Origin: Aureliella helgolandensis
GTDB taxonomy: Bacteria; Planctomycetota; Planctomycetia; Pirellulales; Pirellulaceae
Direction: 5' to 3'
NCBI RefSeq assembly: GCF_007752135.1
Contig: NZ_CP036298.1
Location: 4,154,001 to 4,218,000, forward strand
DNA: 64,000 bases
The notes below the pieces were generated by a model, which did not search any database, had not been told where the DNA came from, and saw nothing but the letters and a program-made list of their open reading frames with translations. The position numbers and the translations under genes were made by a program. Positions 9,844-23,409 of the stretch are shown piece by piece. Numbering within the stretch: position 1 is the stretch's first letter; each line of letters opens with the position of its first letter.

Positions 9844-10000
9844 TCTTAGGGGACGCGGCAGCGGTGGTGGAGAGTACGCCGATAGAGTAGCCCTGACTGC
9901 TTGCGGTTGCCAGAAGGTATTAGAATGCCTAACATTCTGGCGGCAAAGTCGTTGCCGTGTTGCGTGGGCATCTACTCGATTTCTCTGATCAGGGCTGAGC

Positions 10001-10795
10001 GTGAAAGACTATTTGGAGCTACTGAGACATATTCAACAGAATGGGATCGTAAAAACCGATCGCACAGGTACCGGAACACGCAGCCTGTTTGGGTATCAAA
10101 TGCGATTCGACCTCTCGCAAGGCTTTCCCCTGCTAACCACCAAGAAACTGCACTTTAAGAGCATTTTGGTGGAGTTGCTGTGGTTCCTGCGAGGGGATAC
10201 TAATGTCGATTTTCTGCACCAGTATCAAGTTAGTATTTGGGATGAGTGGGCCGACAGCGATGGAAATCTCGGCCCGGTGTATGGCAAGCAATGGCGCAGC
10301 TGGGAAGCTCAGGATGGGCGGGTTATCGACCAGATTCGCAATGTTGAGGAACAGATCCGATCCAACCCCGATTCGAGGCGACTAATCGTCAGTGCTTGGA
10401 ATGTGGGCGATGTCGACCGAATGGCTTTGCCCCCCTGTCACCTGCTGTTTCAATTTTATGTGGCCAATGGCAAGCTGAGTTGCCAACTGTACCAACGAAG
10501 CGCGGATCTGTTTTTGGGGGTTCCATTCAATATTGCCTCCTATGCGTTGCTTACGATCATGATGGCTCGCACGACCGGCTTAGAACCGGGGGATTTCGTC
10601 CACACCTTCGGTGACGTGCACATCTACTCGAACCATCAGCAGCAGGTCGAATTGCAGTTGACTCGCGAGCCGCGACCTCTGCCACAGCTCAAAATTTCCC
10701 ACCCGCGAACTTCCATTATTGATTTTGAGTATGAGGATTTCGAGCTCATCGGCTACGATCCCCATCCGCGCATCCCCGCACCGGTAGCCGTCTGA
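10001..10795 (+). CDS. thyA: Thymidylate synthase
   Basis: It converts dUMP to dTMP using methylene-tetrahydrofolate and releases dihydrofolate. The 264-residue length equals that of the E. coli enzyme, and the alignment is almost gap-free. The catalytic cysteine is C146 in [12 protein letters not shown], the phosphate-binding arginines lie in [12 protein letters not shown] (R126, R127), and [20 protein letters not shown] is the folate/dUMP wall. The start is GTG at 10001 (KDYLELLRH next), matching the conserved N-terminus. folA starts two bases after the stop, so dihydrofolate made here is recycled by the next gene product. Confidence 0.97.
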
Positions 10796-10797
10796 GT

Positions 10798-11328
10798 ATG
10801 CACACGCCAATCCTACCTTCAGATTCTTCCGGTTGGACGCTCGTCGTTGGCATCGGGCGAGGCGGTATCATTGGTAACCGTGGTGCTCTTCCTTGGAGAG
10901 TTCGCAGTGACTTGCAGCGTTTCAAACGCATGACCATGGGGCACTGCCTGTTGATGGGCCGCAAGACTTACGACTCAATTGGCCGCCCCTTGCCCGGTCG
11001 ACAGACCATTGTGCTCTCACGCTCGGTACAATCCAATTTACCTCAAGACGTGGCAGCGGTGAGCAATCTCAACGATGTTGCATCGCTGGTTCAGCCGCAT
11101 CGCAAGGTGATGGTTGTCGGCGGAGCAGAAGTCTATCGCGCTGCCCTCAGTCGATGTGATCGCATGTGGATTACCCGCATCTGTGCCGACGTCGAAGGAG
11201 ACACCGTTTTCCCCGAAATCGATTGGCATGACTGGACACTGGAGCGATCTCAAATGGTAGAGGCGGACCCGCAAGATGAATGGCCCACGGAGTTTGAGGA
11301 ATGGATTCGCAAACCGGCGGCGAAGTAG
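10798..11328 (+). CDS. folA: Dihydrofolate reductase
   Basis: This 176-residue enzyme reduces dihydrofolate to tetrahydrofolate with NADPH. Typical DHFR blocks are WTLVVGIGRGGIIGNRGALPW (about 13-33), the proton-relay acid D38 in RSDLQRFKRMT, and the NADPH-binding MGRKTYDSIGRPLPGR at 53-68. GGAEVYRAAL follows in the C-terminal half. An N-terminal extension of about 11 residues precedes the core. It starts two bases after thyA and its last 28 bases overlap the start of gluQ, so the three genes are probably cotranscribed and translationally coupled. Confidence 0.95.
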   Translation: MHTPILPSDSSGWTLVVGIGRGGIIGNRGALPWRVRSDLQRFKRMTMGHCLLMGRKTYDSIGRPLPGRQTIVLSRSVQSNLPQDVAAVSNLNDVASLVQPHRKVMVVGGAEVYRAALSRCDRMWITRICADVEGDTVFPEIDWHDWTLERSQMVEADPQDEWPTEFEEWIRKPAAK

Positions 11329-12383
11329 TCGCGAACTCGGCTGCTACCGCAGTCGTAGGACGCTTGGCTCCGTCCCCCACGGGGGCCTTGCACTTAGGGA
11401 ACGCAAGATCCTTCCTCCTAGCCTGGCTTTCGGTGCGGCAACAAGCGGGAACTCTATTGCTGCGGATCGAAGATATCGATTCTCCGCGTGTTAAGTCTTG
11501 GGCTATTCAAAGCACTATCGACGATCTGAAATGGTTGGGGCTGGATTGGGACTATGGGCCAGACCAGGGAGCGGATGTCTTTCACGCTCCACTGATCCAA
11601 ACGCAGCGGATGGAACGCTACCAGGCCGTCCTCACTCAACTTCGGGAGCAGCATTGCCTCTATCCGTGTACCTGCACGCGCAGTGAAATAGCTGAGGCTG
11701 CGAGTGCGCCCCATGAATCCCAACTTGAGGGCCCCGTCTACCCTGGTACCTGTCGTCTCGACAGCTTGGGCGAGCGGGTGTCTCAAACTCTGACCGTCCC
11801 GCCAGTTGATGCCAATTTTGCCTGGCGGTGGGCCTTCGACGATGCGCCCCAGACCTGGACGGATTGCGTGCGCGGTACTGTTACAGCGCATCCAGCCTCG
11901 CAGTTGGGGGACTTCGTGATCGCCAAGGGGAATGGAACGCCCGCTTACCAGCTAGCGGTGGTGATCGATGACCACGATATGGGCGTGACAGAAGTGGTCC
12001 GCGGAGACGACTTGGTTTTCAGCACCTTTCGCCAACTTGCCATATTGAAGCAATTGGGCTGGACGGCCCCACGCTACGCACACGTTCCGCTCATCGTCGG
12101 ACCCGACGGTCGTCGACTCGCCAAACGCCACGGTGACACGCGGATAGCCACGCTGAGAACGCTAGGGATAACTCCGGAAGCGATTGTGGGTTACTTGGCC
12201 TGGTCGGTTGGATTGCTCCAAGAACTCATGCCGCTGCATCCCAACGAGCTCTTGGGATGTCTCACCTGGCAATCGATAGTGTCGCAGCCAACGGTGTTTG
12301 ATCTCTCCAGGGAGCTTCCCATCTTACGTCGGCTGAAGCGTGGAGGGAAACGCCCTGCGCTTGGCGACGTGGATGGAGTTTAG
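11301..12383 (+). CDS. gluQ: Glutamyl-Q tRNA(Asp) synthetase
   Basis: This 360-residue class I synthetase relative lacks the anticodon-binding domain of GluRS. GluQ (YadB) attaches glutamate to the queuosine base at position 34 of tRNA(Asp). The HIGH-like motif is PSPTGALHLGN at 24-34, and the family zinc site is visible as C123, C125, Y147 and C151. The KMSKS-equivalent is KRHGD near residue 275. It is longer than the usual 290-310 residues, with extra length at both ends. The ATG at 11301 lies inside folA, with GGAG eight bases upstream. A discriminating GluRS could be excluded because the tRNA-anticodon half is absent. Confidence 0.88.
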   Translation: MDSQTGGEVVANSAATAVVGRLAPSPTGALHLGNARSFLLAWLSVRQQAGTLLLRIEDIDSPRVKSWAIQSTIDDLKWLGLDWDYGPDQGADVFHAPLIQTQRMERYQAVLTQLREQHCLYPCTCTRSEIAEAASAPHESQLEGPVYPGTCRLDSLGERVSQTLTVPPVDANFAWRWAFDDAPQTWTDCVRGTVTAHPASQLGDFVIAKGNGTPAYQLAVVIDDHDMGVTEVVRGDDLVFSTFRQLAILKQLGWTAPRYAHVPLIVGPDGRRLAKRHGDTRIATLRTLGITPEAIVGYLAWSVGLLQELMPLHPNELLGCLTWQSIVSQPTVFDLSRELPILRRLKRGGKRPALGDVDGV

Positions 12384-12411: not shown

Positions 12412-13074
12412 TCACTGCTTGACGCAGAGTCCGACGATTGCGGGGAGATACGTGCGGATGTCCCACTCCATACCAGGTATAGCGGCTGGTAAATCGAAGG
12501 GGACTTCGGCTTCGCAAATAAACTGGCTGCCGACCGGACTTAGATCGTAAAGCTCTTGGATGCCGGCGGCGAGACGCTCCGAATCGGAAGTCCACATGCG
12601 ATACGGCGGGCAGCAGAATACGATCCAAGGCAGCTCGGGCCAGCTAGCCGTGTTCAGCGGAATACTGCGTAGCCAGCGAAGGGTGTCCACGTTGTGGACG
12701 TCGACCAGTTCCTCCAGCTGGAGATCCCGCATATTGGCCAGAATCGACGCGATGGCCGGTCTGGTCAACTCCAGGATCGTCGCTCTTTCGGCTCCTCGGC
12801 TGATCGCCTCAAAACCGAGGATACCAGTACCGCCAAAGAGATCGAGGGCTTGGGTGTTGTAGAGATAGCCTCCCAGTAGACTAAAGACCGCTTCCCGCGT
12901 TTTCTCTTTCATGGGACGAGTGGCCGGATCACCGTTGTAGGTGATTTTTCGTCCTCCCATACTTCCCGCTACGATGCGCAGTCGGGTGGGTACCAGTTTC
13001 GGTTTGACTTGCTTGGGACGACGGCTCGGGAATGTTTCGATATCGTGCGGGGTACGCGACTTTTTTCTCGCCAT
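12412..13074 (-). CDS. rsmD: 16S rRNA (guanine966-N2)-methyltransferase RsmD
   Basis: This 220-residue protein methylates G966 of 16S rRNA. The RsmD core starts with LRIVAGSMGGRKI (about 32-44), followed by the family sequence TRPMKEKTREAVFSLLG. SAM motif I is LDLFGGTGILG at 77-87. The catalytic motif, usually N/D-PP-Y/F, reads CCPPY at 154-158. A basic N-terminal extension of about 30 residues is present. The gene is convergent with gluQ, with stops 28 bases apart. Confidence 0.9.
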   Translation of the reverse strand: MARKKSRTPHDIETFPSRRPKQVKPKLVPTRLRIVAGSMGGRKITYNGDPATRPMKEKTREAVFSLLGGYLYNTQALDLFGGTGILGFEAISRGAERATILELTRPAIASILANMRDLQLEELVDVHNVDTLRWLRSIPLNTASWPELPWIVFCCPPYRMWTSDSERLAAGIQELYDLSPVGSQFICEAEVPFDLPAAIPGMEWDIRTYLPAIVGLCVKQ

Positions 13075-13414
13075 TTCGCTTTATCCTAAAACCGGGGTGA
13101 ACAGCCTATGGTATGGAGAAGGGAGTGATAGGCGGAGGGAGGGTCGGCAGGCGGCTAGTATCAGTTAGAATAACGATTCGAACAATGGCCCGTAGCGTGC
13201 TGCGTACTCCCGTGGGCTGTGATGCACGGTCGCGAACTAAAGCGGCAAGTGCACCGTAACTATTGTGATGGGAGGGGAGTCTGCCTTCCACCCCGTTTTT
13301 CTGGAGCCAGGCCAACAAATCGTCAGGCGGAGTTTTCGAAAGCGTAGACTCCTTTTTCAATCCTATTGGCTCCCTAACAGCCCATTTCCTTTTTCAGTTT
13401 GCGTGTGAGACTCC
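13075..13414. other. Intergenic region, no supported gene
   Basis: It lies between the divergent rsmD and cyclophilin genes, so promoters for both are expected here. An 84-codon minus-strand frame (13106-13360) begins with TTG and has no family resemblance; I do not call it. Confidence 0.5.
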
Positions 13415-14650
13415 ATGAATGCTTCGAAATCCACTCTCTGGTGCGTGCTGCTACTGGTCGCCCACAATGTGACTTTCAGCACCCTTCTTCCCGGGTGGGG
13501 AAATCGGATACTCGCGCAGACCGAATCGGCTGCTCCGTCAGCGTCTACCGAGGAGATCGCACCGGATGAGTCCCCGATTGAACCGGAAAGCCCAGAGTTC
13601 CGCACGGCTTCGAAAGAGCTGCTAGAGCATTTGAAAGTGATGCGCGAAATCATTGTGCGCTATAATGTCAGCACGAATAAGCCGCAGGATGATGAGCTCC
13701 GCGAAAAATGGCTTGAATTGACACCGCGAGCACACGAGTTGCACGCCAAAATGATTGATGCAGCGTTGGCGGAGTATCTTAGCGATCCCGCCGGTAAAGC
13801 GGCCATTGCTGGAATGCTGCGGCGCTTTGTGCTTCGCAATATTGAGGTCGAACGGTACGAGGGCGTCCTAGATGTGGCGCTTGCCTTGATTGAGAATGGC
13901 GATCAGGGAGAACTGGAGAAGACCCAGGTCGTGTTAACCGCCATCGCAGTGAATCGCTATGACGTTGCACTCAATTTCGTTGAACAAATCTTGGCGTCTC
14001 TGACCAGTAAGGAACAGGCCGAGGAGAAGACGCACTACCTCCGCATGCGTGAGCGGATCGAACATATGTCAGCCAACTGGGAGCGAGAGCTCAAGTTGCG
14101 CGCTGAGGATGCTGCCGGGGAACCCTTGCCGCGCGTGCTCATTCGTACGCCCAAGGGGACGATGGAAATCGAGCTGTTTGAGAATCAGGCGCCGGGTAAT
14201 GTTGCCAATTTCATCTCTTTGGTGGAACGTGGGTTTTTCGATGGTTTGCTATTCCACAAAGTGGTGGAGAAGGTTGGTATCCAGACCGGATGCCCGCTCA
14301 ACGATGGTACTGGGGACGATGGTTACCACATCTACGGAGAATCTAATCGACCCGATGCACGGTCTTTCTTCCGCGGTTACCTCGGGATGGCATTGGCCGG
14401 TGGGGACATCGACACTGCCAGTACTCAGTTTTTCATCAATACGTTACCCTCCGATGTCCTGGGGGAAACCTACACTGCCTTTGGACGCGTCATCAAGGGC
14501 TTTGAGACGATGAGTGACTTGACCAAGATCAACCCTGATAGTGAAGACGAAGAGAAGAAGAATGCGGGTGCAATTCCAGACCCCATCCTATCGATTGAGG
14601 TACTCTACAAACGGGATCACGAATACGTGCCGAACAAAGTGGAGCACTAG
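13415..14650 (+). CDS. Secreted cyclophilin-type peptidyl-prolyl cis-trans isomerase
   Basis: This 411-residue protein has a signal peptide (about 1-35) and a helical N-terminal region (about 60-230) of unknown role. A cyclophilin domain follows from about 239 to 395. The domain shows GTMEIELFENQAPGNVANFI, LLFHKVVEKVGIQTG and STQFFINT, matching the bacterial cyclophilin pattern. However, the usual catalytic arginine in the FHRV-type motif is replaced by lysine (FHKV), which may reduce isomerase activity. It probably assists protein folding in the periplasm. It is followed after 55 bases by a lipoprotein gene on the same strand. Confidence 0.88.
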   Translation: MNASKSTLWCVLLLVAHNVTFSTLLPGWGNRILAQTESAAPSASTEEIAPDESPIEPESPEFRTASKELLEHLKVMREIIVRYNVSTNKPQDDELREKWLELTPRAHELHAKMIDAALAEYLSDPAGKAAIAGMLRRFVLRNIEVERYEGVLDVALALIENGDQGELEKTQVVLTAIAVNRYDVALNFVEQILASLTSKEQAEEKTHYLRMRERIEHMSANWERELKLRAEDAAGEPLPRVLIRTPKGTMEIELFENQAPGNVANFISLVERGFFDGLLFHKVVEKVGIQTGCPLNDGTGDDGYHIYGESNRPDARSFFRGYLGMALAGGDIDTASTQFFINTLPSDVLGETYTAFGRVIKGFETMSDLTKINPDSEDEEKKNAGAIPDPILSIEVLYKRDHEYVPNKVEH

Positions 14651-14705
14651 CAATCCGTCTGCTGAGAGCGTTACAAGAACCTATTAACAATGCAGTGAGT
14701 TTGAG

Positions 14706-15722
14706 ATGCGTTTAGTTGCAGGGCTTTGGGGGGTGATGTTGGTGTTTTCTGGCTGTGTGCAACGCAGCGAAAACGCCGTGGTTATCTATTCAGCCGCCGA
14801 TCGAGAATATGCAAAGCCGATTTTGGCCGCCTTTGAACGGCGTCAGCCAGGCATGGAGCTCGCCGCCCAATACGACATCGAATCGACTAAAACCGTCGGG
14901 CTGGTCACACGCTTGGAATCCGAGGCTTCCCGTCCTCGCTGCGATGTGTTCTGGAATAACGAGATCATGCATACGCTGCGTCTGCAGAAGGCAGGGTTGC
15001 TGCAGAGTGTGCGGTGGGATGTACCTGGTAATTGGCCGCAGACCATGAAGGCCGACGACGGTACTTGGCTCGGTTTTGCCGCCAGAGCCCGCATCATTAT
15101 GCTGAACCAAGACATGTTTCCGGAGGGGGTGGAACGTCCACAATCGTTTGCGGATTTAGCGTCCCCGAAGTGGCAAGGGAAATGTGCCGTGGCGCTCCCT
15201 CTGTTCGGTACAACGGCCACGCATTTCACCGTCCTTGACCAGTTGCTAGGCAAGGAACGAGCACAAGAGCTATTTGCAAACATCAAGCAAAACGCGGTGG
15301 TGCTGTCGGGCAACAAGCAGGTCGCCCAGGCTGTTTCTTCGGGGGCCGTGGCTTGGGGTATCACCGATACCGATGATGCTTTAGTCGAACTTGACGCAGG
15401 ACTGCCTGTGGAAATTGTCTACCCCGACCAGGCGCCTGCGGAACTGGGAACGCTCCGGATTCCCAACACCATTGCCGTGCTCAAAGGAGCACCTCATCCG
15501 GTTGCAGCCGTCGCGCTTGCCAACTACTTGGTGTCGGAGGATACCGAGGGGCGCTTAGCGATGGGGCCGAGCGGGCAATTTCCGGTTCGCCCTGGACATC
15601 CTCAGTTGTCCCGGGCACAAGGCCCCGATACCGTGCGGTGGATGGACGCAGATTTTTCGGCAGCCGCCGGACGTTGGCCGAGTCTGTCGGATGAGCTGCG
15701 GCAGCTATTTCAAGCGGATTGA
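14706..15722 (+). CDS. Solute-binding lipoprotein of an ABC transporter (iron/ FbpA-like group)
   Basis: This 338-residue protein has a lipobox VFSGC with the lipidated cysteine at residue 17, so it should be anchored to a membrane facing the periplasm. VVIYSAADREYAKPIL near residue 25 and the Pro/Gly-rich FGTTATHFTVLDQLLG fit the extracellular solute-binding family 1 / Fe(III)-binding group. No permease or ATPase gene is adjacent, so the substrate and partner proteins are unknown. Iron(III) is a family-based guess. The ATG follows TTTGAG. Confidence 0.75.
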   Translation: MRLVAGLWGVMLVFSGCVQRSENAVVIYSAADREYAKPILAAFERRQPGMELAAQYDIESTKTVGLVTRLESEASRPRCDVFWNNEIMHTLRLQKAGLLQSVRWDVPGNWPQTMKADDGTWLGFAARARIIMLNQDMFPEGVERPQSFADLASPKWQGKCAVALPLFGTTATHFTVLDQLLGKERAQELFANIKQNAVVLSGNKQVAQAVSSGAVAWGITDTDDALVELDAGLPVEIVYPDQAPAELGTLRIPNTIAVLKGAPHPVAAVALANYLVSEDTEGRLAMGPSGQFPVRPGHPQLSRAQGPDTVRWMDADFSAAAGRWPSLSDELRQLFQAD

Positions 15723-16159: not shown

Positions 16160-17986
16160 CTAGTTATCCGCGCCGGTTTCCAGAATGGCCATGAATGCTT
16201 TCTGTGGGATATCCACGGAGCCGATCGATTTCATCCGCTTCTTTCCCTCTTTCTGCTTAGCCCATAGTTTTTTCTTGCGGCTGATGTCCCCACCATAGCA
16301 CTTGGCGGTAACGTTCTTACGCATCGCTGGCTTCGTTTCTCGCGCGATGATGCGCGAACCGATGGCAGCTTGAACGGCCACTTCGAACATGTGCCGATCG
16401 ATCTCGTCCTTGAGCTTTTTAACCACGGCGCGACCGCGACGATCAGCATCGCGACGATCACAGATCACACTCAACGCATCCACGTTATTTCCGTTCACGA
16501 GGATATCCATCCGAACTAGGTCCGCAGGCTCGTAACCGATCAACTCATAGTCCATCGTCCCATAACCACGCGTCGCACTCTTGAGTTTGTCGTGCAGATC
16601 GTAGATGACTTCCGCCAAGGGAAGATCGTAGGTGATCATGGCGCGTGTGGGGGAAATGTACTCGGTGGATTGCTGTACACCGCGTCGATCCTGCGAAAGC
16701 TTCATGACTACACCAATTTGATCGTTGGGAACCACAAAGTTGACTCTCACGATCGGCTGACGAAACTCTTCGATCTCACCGGAATCGGGAACATCTTGAG
16801 GTTTGTGCAATTCGTGCTCAACACCTCGCTTATCCAAGATGCGATAGGTCACGTTGGGAGCGGTCTGCACTAAATCGACATTGCATTCTTCCTCCAATCG
16901 CTGTTGCACAATTTCCATGTGCAGCAGGCCCAGGAAGCCGCAGCGAAATCCAAAGCCTAACGCGTCGCTTGTCTCTGCCACAAATTCAAAGCTGGGATCG
17001 TTGATACTCAGCTTCTCCAAAGCTTCGCGCAATTCTTTAAAATCTTGGCCATCACTCGGAAACAGTCCGCAGTACACCATCCGCTTAGGCTGCGCGTAGC
17101 CCTCGAGCGCTGGAGCCGCATCGGCCCCGGTGGAGACAATAGTGTCACCAATGTGCACATCTTTGAGTGATTTGATGTTGCAGATCATGTAGCCGACTTG
17201 GCCAGCGCGCAAACGCTTGGTGGGACGCCGCTTGGGGACGAATTGTCCGAGCTCGATCACTTCGTACACAGCATCCGCGCGTGCCAAACGGATCTTCTGC
17301 CCTGTTTCAACGGTGCCTGCCATTAGCCGCGTGTACGAAATGGCTCCACGAAAGTCATCGTAGTGCGAATCAAAGACCATGCCCTGCAGCGGCGCCGAAA
17401 CGTTTCCGCTCGGTGGCGGAATCCGTTCAATGATTGCAGCCAAGAGTTCGTCGATGCCGATCCCAGCCTTGGCGCTGCACTTCACTACATCGTTTCCGTC
17501 GATGCCGAGCGACTGCTCCATTTCTTCGACAACCTCATCGACCCTCGCATAGGAGAGGTCAATTTTGTTGATCACGGGAATGATCGCCAGTTCGTGCTCC
17601 ATCGCGGCGTAGGCATTGGCCATCGTTTGGGCCTCTACTCCCTGAAACGCGTCGACGAGCAGCAGAGCACCTTCACAGCAGGTTAGACTGCGGGAGACTT
17701 CGTATTGAAAATCGACGTGACCAGGAGTGTCGATCAAATTCAATTCATATTCTTCGCCCTTGTACATCGTTCGCAAGGTAACCGCTTTGGCTTTGATGGT
17801 AATACCACGCGAACGCTCCAGCTCCATTCCATCCAACAGCTGGGCGCGCATTTCGCGCATAGCCACGGTTCCCGTTTTTTCCAACAGGCGGTCTGCCAAT
17901 GTGCTTTTACCATGATCGATATGCGCAATGATGCAAAAGTTGCGAACATGGGAAATGTCAATCTCGCTAATGTTCTGCTTACTCAG
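16160..17986 (-). CDS. lepA: Elongation factor 4 (LepA), predicted CTG start
   Basis: EF4/LepA is a ribosome-bound translational GTPase. With a CTG start at 17986 the protein has 608 residues, close to the usual 600. Visible motifs are the P-loop AHIDHGKST (21-29), switch I RGITIKA, DTPGHVD, NKID and the LepA-specific C-terminus ending in FMAILETGADN. In this frame there is no ATG, GTG or TTG between the in-frame stop at 18044-18046 and the P-loop. The first TTG (17899) would remove the P-loop. A GGAG lies eight bases upstream of the CTG, which supports it; ATT at 17971 is the alternative. The frame is unbroken from the CTG into the body of the gene. A ROK kinase gene lies upstream on the same strand. 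Confidence 0.9.
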   Translation of the reverse strand: MSKQNISEIDISHVRNFCIIAHIDHGKSTLADRLLEKTGTVAMREMRAQLLDGMELERSRGITIKAKAVTLRTMYKGEEYELNLIDTPGHVDFQYEVSRSLTCCEGALLLVDAFQGVEAQTMANAYAAMEHELAIIPVINKIDLSYARVDEVVEEMEQSLGIDGNDVVKCSAKAGIGIDELLAAIIERIPPPSGNVSAPLQGMVFDSHYDDFRGAISYTRLMAGTVETGQKIRLARADAVYEVIELGQFVPKRRPTKRLRAGQVGYMICNIKSLKDVHIGDTIVSTGADAAPALEGYAQPKRMVYCGLFPSDGQDFKELREALEKLSINDPSFEFVAETSDALGFGFRCGFLGLLHMEIVQQRLEEECNVDLVQTAPNVTYRILDKRGVEHELHKPQDVPDSGEIEEFRQPIVRVNFVVPNDQIGVVMKLSQDRRGVQQSTEYISPTRAMITYDLPLAEVIYDLHDKLKSATRGYGTMDYELIGYEPADLVRMDILVNGNNVDALSVICDRRDADRRGRAVVKKLKDEIDRHMFEVAVQAAIGSRIIARETKPAMRKNVTAKCYGGDISRKKKLWAKQKEGKKRMKSIGSVDIPQKAFMAILETGADN

Positions 17987-18004
17987 GGTAAAAGCTCCAG
18001 TGCA
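17987..18004 (-). promoter_or_regulatory. Ribosome binding site for the CTG start of lepA
   Basis: Read on the minus strand the segment is CACTGGAGCTTTTACC followed by CTG. GGAG is spaced eight bases from the CTG codon, a normal Shine-Dalgarno distance. No better site precedes any other possible start in this frame. Confidence 0.5.
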
Positions 18005-18095
18005 ATAGTCAAATTTTGTATAAGGGGATAGCAGCAGGCGGATCTACGACTCGCGTCATATCCAGCCACGCCCAACGCTGCCGATTGGGTGTCGA

Positions 18096-19130
18096 TCAGG
18101 TTGCAAGATAGTCCTGTCTAGCAATTCCTGCAGCACCAATGTACCCAGCGTCGCCACCCAAGCTTGCGAAGGCGATGCGGGTTCCGTGGAACACGTTCTC
18201 AAACGTCCGACTCTTAAATTCGTCACTGATGCCTTGGAGGAATCGGCCTCCCACCGCACATTCATGCCCGCCAAAGTTCATCGCCCCCCCCAATACAACC
18301 AAGCCAGGGTCTACGGTGTGTACGGCACAAGTGATGCCGATTCCCAGGTATCTCGCCGTATCGTCGATCAGGCTCAGCGCGAAGGGATCACCGGCAACTG
18401 CGGCTAGGTAGACATCCTTGGCGGACAGGGGATCTCCTTGCATGCCAATTTCCGACAAAGAAGTTTGAACTCCCTCGGCTACCGCCTCACGTGCCCTTAG
18501 GGCAACGGCACTGGCGCTGGCGTAGGCCTCGAGCTGTCCTCGTCCGCCCCCCCAACTGCACAGTCGCGCATCGGGACGGCTATCGACGACGACATGTCCC
18601 AGCTCGCTGCCGAAACTGTTGGAGCCGTTAATTAGATTTCCGCTGGAGATGATACCACCGCCAACTCCGGTTCCAAGCGTGAGAAGAACTAGGCTTTCGG
18701 CGTCGACGCCAGATCCAACCCAGAACTCACCAAACGCAGCCGCATTGGCGTCATTGATAAAGCTGAAGTCCGTACCCACCGCTTCGGCCACTGCCTGCTG
18801 GATGGGAAATTGGTGCCATTCGGGAAGATTCGTGGGGTTGAGCAACATGCCCCTTTTAAGACAAATCGGCCCGGGAGCTCCCAGACAGCCCCTGGCGATC
18901 GAATCGAAGGGCAATGCAATGTTGGCCGCCAGCGATCGACACGTTTCGGCGATACGGAGGCAGGCGACATGAGGCTTTGTGCTGGGATCCGTGTGGATGC
19001 TCTGGAAGGCAAGGGTGCGTCCCCGCTCATCGACCAACCCAACTTTGATGTTGGTGCCTCCTATATCGACGCCCCAGAAAAAGGGGGCTTCCGCCTCGGT
19101 AAGTGAGATTATGGGCTGACTAAAAGACAT
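18096..19130 (-). CDS. ROK-family sugar kinase (glucokinase-like)
   Basis: This 344-residue ROK (NagC/XylR-type kinase) protein has the phosphate-binding motif DIGGTN at residues 22-27, and DANAAAFGE and LGTGVGGG in the middle. It probably phosphorylates glucose or a related sugar in the cytoplasm. The usual ROK zinc site CxCGxxGC is degraded: only the first cysteine remains in LCSWGGGRGQLEAYAS, the others being W and Q. A longer start at 19241 exists in the same frame, but the added residues look non-coding and the conserved core begins just after M at 19130. It lies 110 bases upstream of lepA and may be cotranscribed with it. A regulator is unlikely because no DNA-binding domain is present. 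Confidence 0.85.
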   Translation of the reverse strand: MSFSQPIISLTEAEAPFFWGVDIGGTNIKVGLVDERGRTLAFQSIHTDPSTKPHVACLRIAETCRSLAANIALPFDSIARGCLGAPGPICLKRGMLLNPTNLPEWHQFPIQQAVAEAVGTDFSFINDANAAAFGEFWVGSGVDAESLVLLTLGTGVGGGIISSGNLINGSNSFGSELGHVVVDSRPDARLCSWGGGRGQLEAYASASAVALRAREAVAEGVQTSLSEIGMQGDPLSAKDVYLAAVAGDPFALSLIDDTARYLGIGITCAVHTVDPGLVVLGGAMNFGGHECAVGGRFLQGISDEFKSRTFENVFHGTRIAFASLGGDAGYIGAAGIARQDYLAT

Positions 19131-19527
19131 TCTGCGATCCGCAGGTGGGAAAGTTGCATGGTCCAGCAGGCATGTGATCTCAAAAGAACGGTCGGACCAG
19201 CCCGCGGGAGCCGCTCGCTCGCTGCTCGCAAGCCAGTGCATTGCAACCCACGCATCCCGTCGGACAGAGTTCTGACCTGAGCGTGGGGCGCGGTAGGAGG
19301 GCTAATCTGGGTAACGTCTAAGCGGAGATCGGGCTGCTCGACTTTTCTGAGAGGTAATTCCTTGGGAAGTGGTCCAGTATACGTGGTGTCAGCGAATTCC
19401 CATAGGCAGGATTTGGGAGTGGGGTTGCTAGGGTTGTCTTGACGTAACCCCTTACTTTCCGCTAAGAAACGCACGGACCTTAAGAGTCTCGCGAGGGCGA
19501 GACAGCAAGAACAACATCCAAGGAACC
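19131..19527. other. Intergenic region between divergent genes
   Basis: It contains no gene that I can support. As the region between a ROK kinase (minus) and a PVC dehydrogenase (plus) it should hold the promoters of both, but none is clear. Confidence 0.5.
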
Positions 19528-22500
19528 GTGGTCGTGTCTACAAAGCTCTTCCTCAACCGTTTGCCCAAATGCCCCTTTGGTGAACGCTCAGCTCTACTAG
19601 CTCGTTGGTTTTTGGTGGCAATTTCTCTAGGTGGTGCACTGTTCACTCCCTCGTATGCCGAGGCGCAGGAAGCCGAGTGGATTTGGACGCCCGAACACCC
19701 GCGAGGTCTGGCCAAGCAGGGGGATTGTTTTTTCCGCAAGACAATTCAGCTGGGACGTGTTGAAGAGGCAACCATCACGATCACCGCAGACGATGCCTAC
19801 ACGCTCTACATTAACGGCCGAGAAGTAGGAGCGGGAAGATCCATTCAGCAGATGGAACAGTATGACGTCACTACGTTGCTCGGTCGCGGGAGGAACGTCA
19901 TCGCGGTCAAAGTCACGAACCTGTCCGACGGGCCCGCCGCCCTTGCCGCTCGTGTGTTCATTAAACCCGAGGGGCAACCGTGGCTTAGTTTTTCGACCAA
20001 TCAAAGTTGGCGGACGTCGATCGAAAATTTGCGAGGCTGGCAATTGGTGGCGCACTCCGAAGCCAACTGGAAGCCGGCTGCGACGTACGGTCTGTTAGGT
20101 GTGACCGCACCGTGGGATCGGCGCGAAGATGTTGCTCCAGAACGGGTCTCCGAAAATCAACGCTTCCGAGTGAGTCGTGAATTTGCGGTCGACCAGATTT
20201 TAAGCGATGACGTGACCGGCTCTCTGGTTAACATGGCTTTCAACGAATTTGGCCATATCGTAGCGGCCCAAGAGGGTGGTCCGCTGCTGTTGATTTACGA
20301 CAGTGACCACGACGGCACTTTTGACAAAACACGAGAGTATTGCACTCTCGTCAGCAATATCCAGGGCATTCTGCCCCTCAATGGCGACGTTTTCGTTACC
20401 GGAGAGGGCCCGGATGGTTCCGGAATTTATCGGCTGATTGACCAAGACCGTAACGGCGCCTTGGAGGAGGCCAAGAAAGTCATTGGTTTCAAAGGGGAGC
20501 CTGGAGAACACGGCGCCCATGGATTGGCGTTGGGCCCCGATGGACGCATCTACTGCGTGCTGGGCAACCAGGTGCAATTTGATGGCGTGTTCTCGGCGAA
20601 GAGTCCTCTCAAGCAATACTATGAAGGAGATCTCGTCGGTCCACGTTACGAAGATCCGGGTGGGCATGCACGCGGTACCAAAGCGCCCGGCGGAACGATC
20701 ATTCGCATGGACGTCGAAGGCAGCTCGGTGGAGTTGGTCGCAGGTGGCTTAAGAAACGCCTTCGACCTCGTTTTTCACCCCTCCGGAAAACTGTTTGTGC
20801 ATGACAGCGATATGGAGTCGGATGAAGGTGCGGTGTGGTATCGCCCCACCAGCCTTTTCGAAGTCGTAGAAGGTGCCGAATTTGGTTGGCGTAGCGGCTG
20901 GGCCAAATGGCCAAGCTACTATTTCGACCGCCTGCCCACCGAACTGGAGACGGGACGCGGTTCTCCTACCGGTGCCTGCGTCTACGATCACTTGATGTTC
21001 CCGTTGCGCTACCATGGATCGCTGTTCTTAGCCGATTGGACGCAAGGCCAGATCATGGCGGTTAAATTCGACGCCAATGGAAAGGCTCAGTCGGAGGTCT
21101 TTGTACAAGGGCAGCCCTTGAACGTTACCGACCTGGCTGTCGGTCCGGATGGCTGGCTCTACTTCTGCACAGGCGGTCGCGGCACCCGCGGCGGAATCTA
21201 TCAGATTCGCTGGTTGGGTACCGTGCCAGACTCGGTCAAAGATTTGGGCGATGGAATTGCCAAGGGGATCAAGCAGCCTCAGCTGGACTCGGCTTGGGCT
21301 CGGCAAGAAATCGCAACCCTCAAGCGCACACTCGGTGCCAGTTGGGGAGACACCGTGGCAGGCGTGGCGTTTAGTAATGAGAATTCGGCCAAGTACCGCT
21401 TGCGAGCCTTGGATTTGATGCAGCTCTTCGGACCGACGCCAACCCCGGAACTGCTCAAGGAACTCAGTTCCGCACCCAACGAAGCGGTTCGCGCTAAGAC
21501 CGCGAGGCTGATGGGCATGCACGGAAGTGCGACGCAGGTCGTTACCCTACTTGAAAATATGTTGACCGATTCCGATCCACTCGTCCAGCATGCTGCTGGC
21601 GAGGCGTTACTCCGCGCCGATGCGGAAGTCGACTACGAGTTGCTGATACCGTTGCTCGAGAGTAGCGACCGGAAGCTGGCTTGGAGCGGTCGCAAGCTGC
21701 TCGAACGCGTACCGCCCGAGCAATGGACTACCAAGTTGCTGATTCACCCCAGCCAGCGGGTGCGTCTGCAAGCTGGTTTGGCGCTGATGACCGCCGCGCC
21801 GGAAAAGGCGCGCGCACTAGAAGTCGTAGCAGCCATTGAGAAGATGCTGACGGAGTTTGTGAGTGATCGAAACTTCATGGACCTTCTCCGTCTCGCCCAG
21901 GTGACTCTCCATCGATCGGGTTTGAAGGCCGAGGAAGTTCCCAGCCTGGCGGACGCCATCGCCGCAGAATATCCCGTGGGTGAACCGATTATCAATCGCG
22001 AGCTGATGCGGTTGCTCACTTACGTCAATGCGGAAGCGGTGCTTCCCAGCGCCATTAGCTATCTGCAATCCGATGCAGATTTGGCAGAACGGATGCACGT
22101 GGCAATGCACCTCCCATTCTTTGAACATGAGTGGACGGCTGCCGAACGGTATGCCCTGATCAAATTCTTCGAGGAAACTCAGCCAGCAGAGGCAGGTAGC
22201 AGTGTGCCGTTGTATGTCATGAATGTAACGCGCGACCTCTGCAAAGACCTGCCGCTTGAAGAAGCCAGAATCTTCGTGTCTGAAGGGGCCAAGTGGCCGA
22301 ATGCGGCTCTGGTGTCTCTCTATGTCTACCCTGACAAGCTAACGCCCGCCGATCTGCAAACACTCCGTCGGCTTGATCAAGAGATTGACCGACCTGGTTT
22401 TGAAGGCGAACAATTCAAGCGACTACGAACCGGTATCGTGGCGATGCTCTCTCAAAACTCGGACCCCGAGTCCACCGCTTATCTGCGAGAAATCTGGATT

Positions 22501-23409
22501 CGAAGTCCAGAGCGACGGCAAGCAGTCGCGCTCGGGCTGTCGATGCAACCCAACGATGAAAACTGGGATTATCTAGTGCGTAGTCTTCCGGTGCTCGAAT
22601 CGTTTGCGGTTCCTGAAGTCATGGATGCGCTGCGTAAGGTCCCCACGGCGACGAACGATCCACAGGCATTGCGGGAAGTCATCCTGCATGGGCTTCGCAT
22701 GGAGCAAGAGGGGCAATCGCCCGCGTCCGCACTCAAGCTGCTGACCTATTGGACGGGACAATCCCCAACCCCTTCCAGTTCAGCGGAGGACGCAGGTGGC
22801 GAACAACGCACCCTGCAGGGCTGGCAGGAATGGTTTGCCCAGAAATTTCCAGAACATCCGGAAGCCAAGCTGCCGGAACTTGAAAAGAGCTCGCCGTGGA
22901 ATACGGAAACCTTGGATGAGTATTTTGCCTCGAGCGACGGTCGCAAGGGGGATCGGGAGAATGGACAAGCTATCTTTGCCAAGGCTCAATGTGCGAGTTG
23001 CCACCGCATGCAGACAACCGGGGCCGCTGTTGGACCTGATTTAACGAGCGTGGCCAGTCGCTTTACGCGAAAGGAAGTGATCGAGTCGATTCTCTTCCCG
23101 TCGCACGTCATCAGCGATCAGTACCGATCAAAACGGGTACTCACCAGCGATGGTAAAGTAATTAGCGGAATGTTGACGGAGAATGCAAACGGTTCCGTTA
23201 TGGTTCGCGATTCACAATTGGTTGAGCACATTATCGCTGAACAGGATATTGATGAAATTCAACCCAGCAAATCCTCCTTGATGCCAGGTGGATTGCTGGA
23301 TGAACTCTCTGCACCGGAGATCCGGGATCTCATGCTCTACATGGGCTACGGGACCGCCCAGACGCCACAGTTCGCAGAATCCCCCGAGTCGGGGAACTTG
23401 TCGCGGTAG
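19528..23409 (+). CDS. PVC-type membrane-bound dehydrogenase with HEAT-like repeats and haem-binding domain
   Basis: This 1293-residue secreted protein starts with GTG behind AAGGA and has a signal peptide (about 1-45). A beta-sandwich domain follows (about 50-160) with ITADDAYTLYINGREVGAG, similar to glycosidase-type carbohydrate-binding domains. Next comes a PVC-type beta-propeller dehydrogenase region of the sorbosone-dehydrogenase kind (about 220-560), a helical repeat region (about 580-1000) and a C-terminal cytochrome c-like domain. The haem motif CASCH is at residues 1155-1159, and GPDLTSVASRF follows. This architecture is a Planctomycetes/Verrucomicrobia hallmark associated with sugar oxidation and electron transfer in the periplasm; the substrate is unknown. 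Confidence 0.88.
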   Translation: MVVSTKLFLNRLPKCPFGERSALLARWFLVAISLGGALFTPSYAEAQEAEWIWTPEHPRGLAKQGDCFFRKTIQLGRVEEATITITADDAYTLYINGREVGAGRSIQQMEQYDVTTLLGRGRNVIAVKVTNLSDGPAALAARVFIKPEGQPWLSFSTNQSWRTSIENLRGWQLVAHSEANWKPAATYGLLGVTAPWDRREDVAPERVSENQRFRVSREFAVDQILSDDVTGSLVNMAFNEFGHIVAAQEGGPLLLIYDSDHDGTFDKTREYCTLVSNIQGILPLNGDVFVTGEGPDGSGIYRLIDQDRNGALEEAKKVIGFKGEPGEHGAHGLALGPDGRIYCVLGNQVQFDGVFSAKSPLKQYYEGDLVGPRYEDPGGHARGTKAPGGTIIRMDVEGSSVELVAGGLRNAFDLVFHPSGKLFVHDSDMESDEGAVWYRPTSLFEVVEGAEFGWRSGWAKWPSYYFDRLPTELETGRGSPTGACVYDHLMFPLRYHGSLFLADWTQGQIMAVKFDANGKAQSEVFVQGQPLNVTDLAVGPDGWLYFCTGGRGTRGGIYQIRWLGTVPDSVKDLGDGIAKGIKQPQLDSAWARQEIATLKRTLGASWGDTVAGVAFSNENSAKYRLRALDLMQLFGPTPTPELLKELSSAPNEAVRAKTARLMGMHGSATQVVTLLENMLTDSDPLVQHAAGEALLRADAEVDYELLIPLLESSDRKLAWSGRKLLERVPPEQWTTKLLIHPSQRVRLQAGLALMTAAPEKARALEVVAAIEKMLTEFVSDRNFMDLLRLAQVTLHRSGLKAEEVPSLADAIAAEYPVGEPIINRELMRLLTYVNAEAVLPSAISYLQSDADLAERMHVAMHLPFFEHEWTAAERYALIKFFEETQPAEAGSSVPLYVMNVTRDLCKDLPLEEARIFVSEGAKWPNAALVSLYVYPDKLTPADLQTLRRLDQEIDRPGFEGEQFKRLRTGIVAMLSQNSDPESTAYLREIWIRSPERRQAVALGLSMQPNDENWDYLVRSLPVLESFAVPEVMDALRKVPTATNDPQALREVILHGLRMEQEGQSPASALKLLTYWTGQSPTPSSSAEDAGGEQRTLQGWQEWFAQKFPEHPEAKLPELEKSSPWNTETLDEYFASSDGRKGDRENGQAIFAKAQCASCHRMQTTGAAVGPDLTSVASRFTRKEVIESILFPSHVISDQYRSKRVLTSDGKVISGMLTENANGSVMVRDSQLVEHIIAEQDIDEIQPSKSSLMPGGLLDELSAPEIRDLMLYMGYGTAQTPQFAESPESGNLSR

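Follow-up and report, generated by a model that had tools for sequence, protein, structure and literature searches.

Where does translation of lepA begin in Aureliella helgolandensis Q31a, a member of a genus of budding planctomycetes, whose genome is a single contig of 8,439,957 bases? The question arises in the 64,000-nucleotide stretch of this genome that was analysed here (the window), in which the lepA frame on the minus strand enters the conserved GTPase core from upstream and yet offers no usual place to start. The features concerned, in window coordinates, are these:

16160 to 17986, minus strand: coding sequence of lepA (EF4) with CTG as its first codon, 608 codons and a stop, assigned by TIGR01393 and Pfam
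17984 to 17986, minus strand: proposed initiation codon CTG, from a scan of GGAG spacing and the presence of CTG in eight further genomes
17995 to 17998, minus strand: GGAG, a Shine-Dalgarno-like site 8 nt before the CTG
18044 to 18046, minus strand: TAG upstream in the lepA frame, read from the sequence
17900 to 17926, minus strand: P-loop AHIDHGKST, the alignment anchor
17897 to 17899, minus strand: TTG, the first standard in-frame start codon, directly behind the P-loop and giving 579 amino acids
18096 to 19241, minus strand: upstream gene on the same strand, from the open reading frame list

The frame is intact from the TAG at 18046–18044 to the stop at 16162–16160, with no internal stop, and the product is a full-length EF4/LepA with an EF-Tu-like GTPase domain carrying the P-loop, an EFG_C domain and a LepA_C domain. 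It scores 874 bits against TIGR01393 (cut-off 533.9) and passes the cut-offs of the Pfam models GTP_EFTU (PF00009), GTP_EFTU_D2 (PF03144), EFG_C (PF00679) and LepA_C (PF06421). A GTPase domain without the G' insert is a feature of the LepA/EF4 family (PMC4342817; here and below, PMC identifiers stand for excerpts of the papers). The first-pass annotation had claimed that the frame lacks any ATG, GTG or TTG from its upstream stop to the P-loop, and our reading of the minus strand between the TAG at 18046–18044 and the P-loop found none. It had also proposed the CTG at 17986 as the start of a protein of nearly normal EF4 length, which agrees with the 608 codons and the full-length domain assignment, and had foreseen that a standard gene caller would start at TTG 17899 and lose the P-loop; the mechanical open reading frame list indeed enters lepA as the 579-residue frame from TTG 17899–17897. 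If CTG is the start, the predicted N-terminus is Met-SKQNISEIDISHVR or SKQNISEIDISHVR. Within the 110 nt before the P-loop, this CTG is the only ATG, GTG, TTG or CTG in any frame of the window that lies 6 to 9 nt from a GGAG.

Across the genus, 15 genomes including that of Q31a were searched and the lepA start region was obtained from 12, while G001, G008 and G013 (73 to 84% complete) yielded no start region of this lepA. The CTG recurs in the lepA frame at the same place in nine of the 12 start regions (L009, L010, L011, L012, L014, L015, L016, L017 and L027), with a GGAG 7 to 8 nt upstream and 18, 19 or 20 codons to the P-loop alanine, and a tenth has GTG there, so that the check suggested earlier, a CTG or other non-AUG codon at this site in relatives, speaks for the proposal within the genus. 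The spacing of eight bases between GGAG and CTG given for the window's own lepA is correct, and the other eight CTG loci have 7 nt. A sequencing error or a decayed gene, conceivable as long as one genome alone carried the arrangement, has a negligible chance of explaining it, given that the arrangement is common to nine genomes (in eight others GGAG-N7-CTG stands in frame) and that the frame is intact and its product above the TIGR01393 cut-off.

Codon positions below are counted back from the P-loop anchor. In seven of the nine CTG loci, the frame contains no ATG, GTG or TTG from the upstream stop down to the eighth codon ahead of the P-loop; in L010 a GTG stands at -7, within the conserved core. 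At -30 to -8, 8 of the 12 genus loci have no standard in-frame start. Several loci count against a CTG start: L027 carries a TTG at -15 for which no Shine-Dalgarno site is listed, in L014 a TTG stands in frame at -56, 9 nt behind a GGAG, and in L010 and L011 an ATT or ATC directly precedes the CTG with GGAG at 4 nt. The same holds for the three genus members without the GGAG-CTG arrangement. Of these, L019 has ATG at -15, and L018 has ATT at -15 (GGAG at 5 nt), GTG at -13 (GGAG at 11 nt) and CTG at -20. At the aligned place L013 reads GTG. Immediately before it stands a TGA, in the reading frame of the upstream gene, which leaves no room for an upstream start in this locus. A homologue of that upstream gene, which by its look we take to be a ROK-type sugar kinase, precedes lepA in all ten relatives' stretches compared. 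L018 (from G011) also contains a GGAG-N6-CTG out of the lepA frame, which could be the ancestral start disrupted as if by a small insertion or deletion.

When the nine CTG loci are aligned at the start, GGAG and CTGA are present in all nine, while ungapped identity at -60 to -16 is 0.26, about random, and gapped identity upstream of the Shine-Dalgarno site is 0.69 against 0.69 for shuffles. Because they are kept in the genomes of nine species beside so saturated a leader, GGAG, CTGA and the reading frame look selected. A scan of the 12 genus loci for GGAG followed by NTG in any frame (spacing 6 to 9, within 110 nt before the P-loop) found exactly one pair in each CTG locus, namely the in-frame CTG. 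Codons -14 to -11 look coding, since their changes fall mostly at third positions (89/68/138 at positions 1/2/3 over 180 codon pairs from ten sequences including L013), compared with 324/337/324 of 450 and no third-position bias upstream of the start; the three codons right after the start change nearly evenly (59/59/74 of 135), which counts against the CTG, and the pairs behind all these counts are not independent, so that the counts are descriptive. No sign of a special RNA opening around the start emerged from comparing the nine CTG loci with 118 relatives, which also counts against it: the unpaired fraction was 0.45 versus 0.56, that is, slightly less accessible.

These patterns also bear on two other places at which translation might begin. 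The first is a near-cognate isoleucine codon at -10, as in infC, at the place of the ATG of a second lepA copy. All nine CTG loci carry ATT, ATC or ATA there, the second copy has its ATG at -10 in five of five loci, and the absence of such a codon in all 39 orthologs with ATG at -15 makes isoleucine there a genus feature. However, no Shine-Dalgarno-like motif of at least four bases is placed for it in the nine loci (a GAG lies 6 nt before codon -10 in L009, L011 and L027), codons -14 to -11 look coding although they would lie upstream of it, GGAG-N7/8-CTG is invariant amid saturated DNA, and L013 carries a standard GTG at the place of the CTG, so that we consider this start improbable. Less probable still is an upstream start reached by frameshift or read-through, or a leader frame that ends at the TGA of CTGA and is followed by re-initiation. 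The CTGA is indeed found in nine of nine loci and an ATG, GTG or TTG opens that other frame within 150 nt in eight of nine, but only three of the nine have ATG, positions vary between loci, and in-frame stops lie upstream at varying places. Taken over the genus comparison, translation of lepA very probably starts at CTG 17986.

Outside the genus the picture is different. The family search matched lepA in 191 of 199 genomes and listed at least 150 places, 11 from the genus and 139 from other genera, of which the best-scoring 119 of the 139 listed (19 loci directly and 100 fetched) were examined. All 119 have a standard start at -30 to -8 (ATG in 109, GTG in 10, with ATG preferred where several standard codons were present). 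The refuting case of relatives all having ATG does not hold in the genus, though the other genera examined do use ATG or GTG. A GGAG 5 to 10 nt before the start occurs in 1 of these 119 loci versus nine of nine CTG loci (Fisher 5e-13, uncorrected for relatedness); a looser Shine-Dalgarno definition (GGAG, AGGA or GAGG at 4 to 15 nt) finds 11 of the 119 starts, which counts against the CTG reading. In a set of 80 named loci that overlaps the family set, the only four without a standard start at -30 to -8 were L160 to L163, which belong to four genomes already counted in the genus. Both the CTG and the GGAG before it are thus traits of the genus.

As to their origin, a single clade of the protein tree (UFBoot 84, SH-aLRT 95, not starred) holds the nine CTG loci together with L013 and L018, and in both nucleotide trees L019, with its ATG, adjoins the CTG clade (SH-aLRT/UFBoot 87/73 and 84/65). 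G010 is represented by its N-terminal part only. On the protein tree the CTG label has to change three times, at least twice by well-supported branches; this counts against the CTG start and may correspond to one gain and two losses. The clades are moderately supported, which likewise counts against it. With moderate support, CTG with GGAG was probably gained once and later gave way to GTG in L013 and to disruption in L018. On this view, an ancestor common to most members of the genus would have exchanged its AUG (or GUG) for a CUG in the same frame, a little upstream of the usual -15, and would have acquired GGAG as a Shine-Dalgarno site 7 nt before the new CUG.

Is the rare start specific to this lepA? 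Second lepA copies exist in 5 of the 15 genus genomes, with a partial one in G008; that of Q31a (G000:C1:6674429-6676219) is 48% identical and starts with ATG, and all five genus loci have this ATG at -10. The gene for EF-Tu starts with ATG in 13 of 13 genus loci, two of which are a second EF-Tu type (L314 and L315); these two have AGGAGG before the ATG, and no such site is found at the 11 main EF-Tu loci. Among 13 infC loci found in the genus, 12 were read and 10 have GTG at a shared place. Two infC loci look different: L048 has an ATA behind AAGGA, followed six codons later by a GTG, and L049 lacks any ATG, GTG or TTG ahead of the conserved part, its candidate being an ATC after AAGGA, so that infC in these genomes (G004 and G008) may start with ATA or ATC. 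As a neighbour-gene control, seven of seven window genes (9989–10792, 10735–11325, 11298–12380, 12415–13080, 14688–15719, 18099–19301 and 19432–23406) begin with a standard codon close to the conserved region; genes were included when the fetched relatives had a homologue with 50% identity or more, some matches being cut by contig ends, and the antisense frames 18526–18969 and 14846–15418 and the gene 13409–14647 (49.9%) were left out. A codon-usage survey of 464 kb (the window plus 20 stretches) for coding signal upstream of standard starts placed lepA 18th of 181, at low power.

Mechanistically, pairing of GGAG with the anti-Shine-Dalgarno sequence would hold the 30S subunit over the CUG, which would be matched by the initiator tRNA at two of three bases only and would give weak, IF3-sensitive initiation; the CUG would then be read by fMet-tRNA as methionine. 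Planctomycetes have a small fraction of Shine-Dalgarno genes (PMC5397173), and in this genome GGAG precedes ATG in 8 of 52 clear ATG frames versus none of 52 at an offset control. This minority use, together with the GGAG at the CTG, points to lepA as a start supported by Shine-Dalgarno pairing that would compensate for the CUG. A search of the organism's own genome for the 16S tail matched neither the tail pattern nor RF00177. CTG functions as a start at a reduced rate in E. coli (PMC13068326). Two results tell against ready use of CUG: in vitro neither the wild-type nor the M1 initiator tRNA starts efficiently on CUG (PMC11497404), and a CUG with a Shine-Dalgarno site in Caulobacter dnaA gave a toeprint and was unused in vivo (PMC8443254).

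Initiator-type tRNA-Met genes whose anticodon stem has A29-U41 where G29-C41 is usual were observed in Q31a (G000:C1:3673846-3673920 and 3836097-3836171) and at L264 to L269, L278 and L279. The arm pattern of the genus initiator tRNA, a search pattern with fixed G30-G31 and not a full census, matched in 146 of 199 family genomes, and among the matches listed a GGG/CCC arm appeared only in G012:C78, G031 and G196. The A29-U41 pair was considered as a cause of the CTG start and rejected, as most of the listed family matches have the same arm, and lepA in that family has an ATG or GTG start; at most, the pair provides a permissive background. The anticodon-stem pairs of initiator tRNA do bear on CUG discrimination (PMC11497404). 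In one assembly a classical GGG/CCC initiator-type tRNA (L263, on G012:C78) stands beside the family type, and that contig is possibly foreign.

What would such a start be for? By analogy with infC and sigR, it is plausible that lepA output would be low and that IF3 would set its level; the suggestion in the first-pass annotation that weak initiation could hold LepA low is compatible with the observations. The likeness to infC lies in a translation-factor gene with a non-canonical start, and infC is under autogenous control by IF3; the difference is that infC starts at AUH codons and encodes the discriminating factor itself, whereas lepA here has CUG and no reading of start codons by LepA is known. 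The AUU start is shared by infC and pcnB (PMC4245954). Another parallel is Streptomyces sigR, whose non-canonical start is genus-conserved, not seen in other genera, equipped with a strong ribosome binding site and missed by gene callers; that start is a GTC in a sigma factor gene and experimentally proven, while the lepA CTG is comparative only (PMC5472188). Non-canonical starts are repressed by IF3, as shown for sigR, whose IF3-limited GTC output matters when changed (PMC5472188). Like sets of weaker start codons accompanied by a stronger Shine-Dalgarno site, lepA combines both features, but those cases concern GUG and UUG and here a CUG came with a gain of GGAG that nearly all relatives examined lack (PMC5622118). 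In Listeria, too, rare start codons, ATT and ATC among them, are fixed in a few conserved core genes, although in one species and in other genes (PMC13068326).

Two hallmarks of the infC and sigR kind are found at lepA: no standard start preserves the conserved N-terminus, apart from the TTG at -15 in L027 and the TTG at -56 in L014, and the same rare codon with its Shine-Dalgarno site is kept in relatives (9 of 12 genus loci). The comparison thus makes the lepA CTG a well-supported new case of a known phenomenon, conserved rare start codons; our search of the open-licence literature turned up no comparable CTG start that is conserved across a bacterial genus.

Whether selection acts on the weakness of this start is a separate matter. 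The main rival on function is replacement and compensation without a regulatory role, in which a neutral or mildly harmful CTG was fixed by drift and rescued by a new Shine-Dalgarno site, and we give it an even chance. It fits with the tendency of stronger Shine-Dalgarno sites to compensate GUG and UUG starts (PMC5622118) and with L019 and L013, which do without CTG; however, a harmful start should often revert, and the CTG, a single base away from ATG, GTG or TTG, is still there in nine of 12 loci beside a saturated flank. That low or IF3-coupled LepA synthesis was selected, a regulatory role suggested by the analogous genes, seems to us somewhat less than an even bet. In E. coli, LepA affects initiation in relation to the Shine-Dalgarno region (PMC4245954) and acts in late maturation of the 30S head, with loose-headed immature 30S subunits in a delta-lepA strain (PMC12787274); these activities make autogenous control of lepA a natural hypothesis, and the excerpt of PMC12787274 contained nothing that connects LepA directly with the choice of start codon. 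One rather unlikely form of such control is that the lepA CUG would sense 30S quality: when LepA is short, immature 30S subunits would discriminate less, lepA initiation would rise and LepA would be restored, an autogenous loop like that of infC that would run via subunit maturation instead.

The putative start has consequences for annotation as well as for physiology. In several species of the genus, gene callers limited to ATG, GTG and TTG would lose the P-loop of this core GTPase. LepA is a ribosome factor found almost universally, its physiological role is still under debate, and given the effect of LepA on Shine-Dalgarno-related initiation in E. coli, a lepA gene that itself relies on a Shine-Dalgarno site and a weak start codon would offer a clear test of autogenous control.
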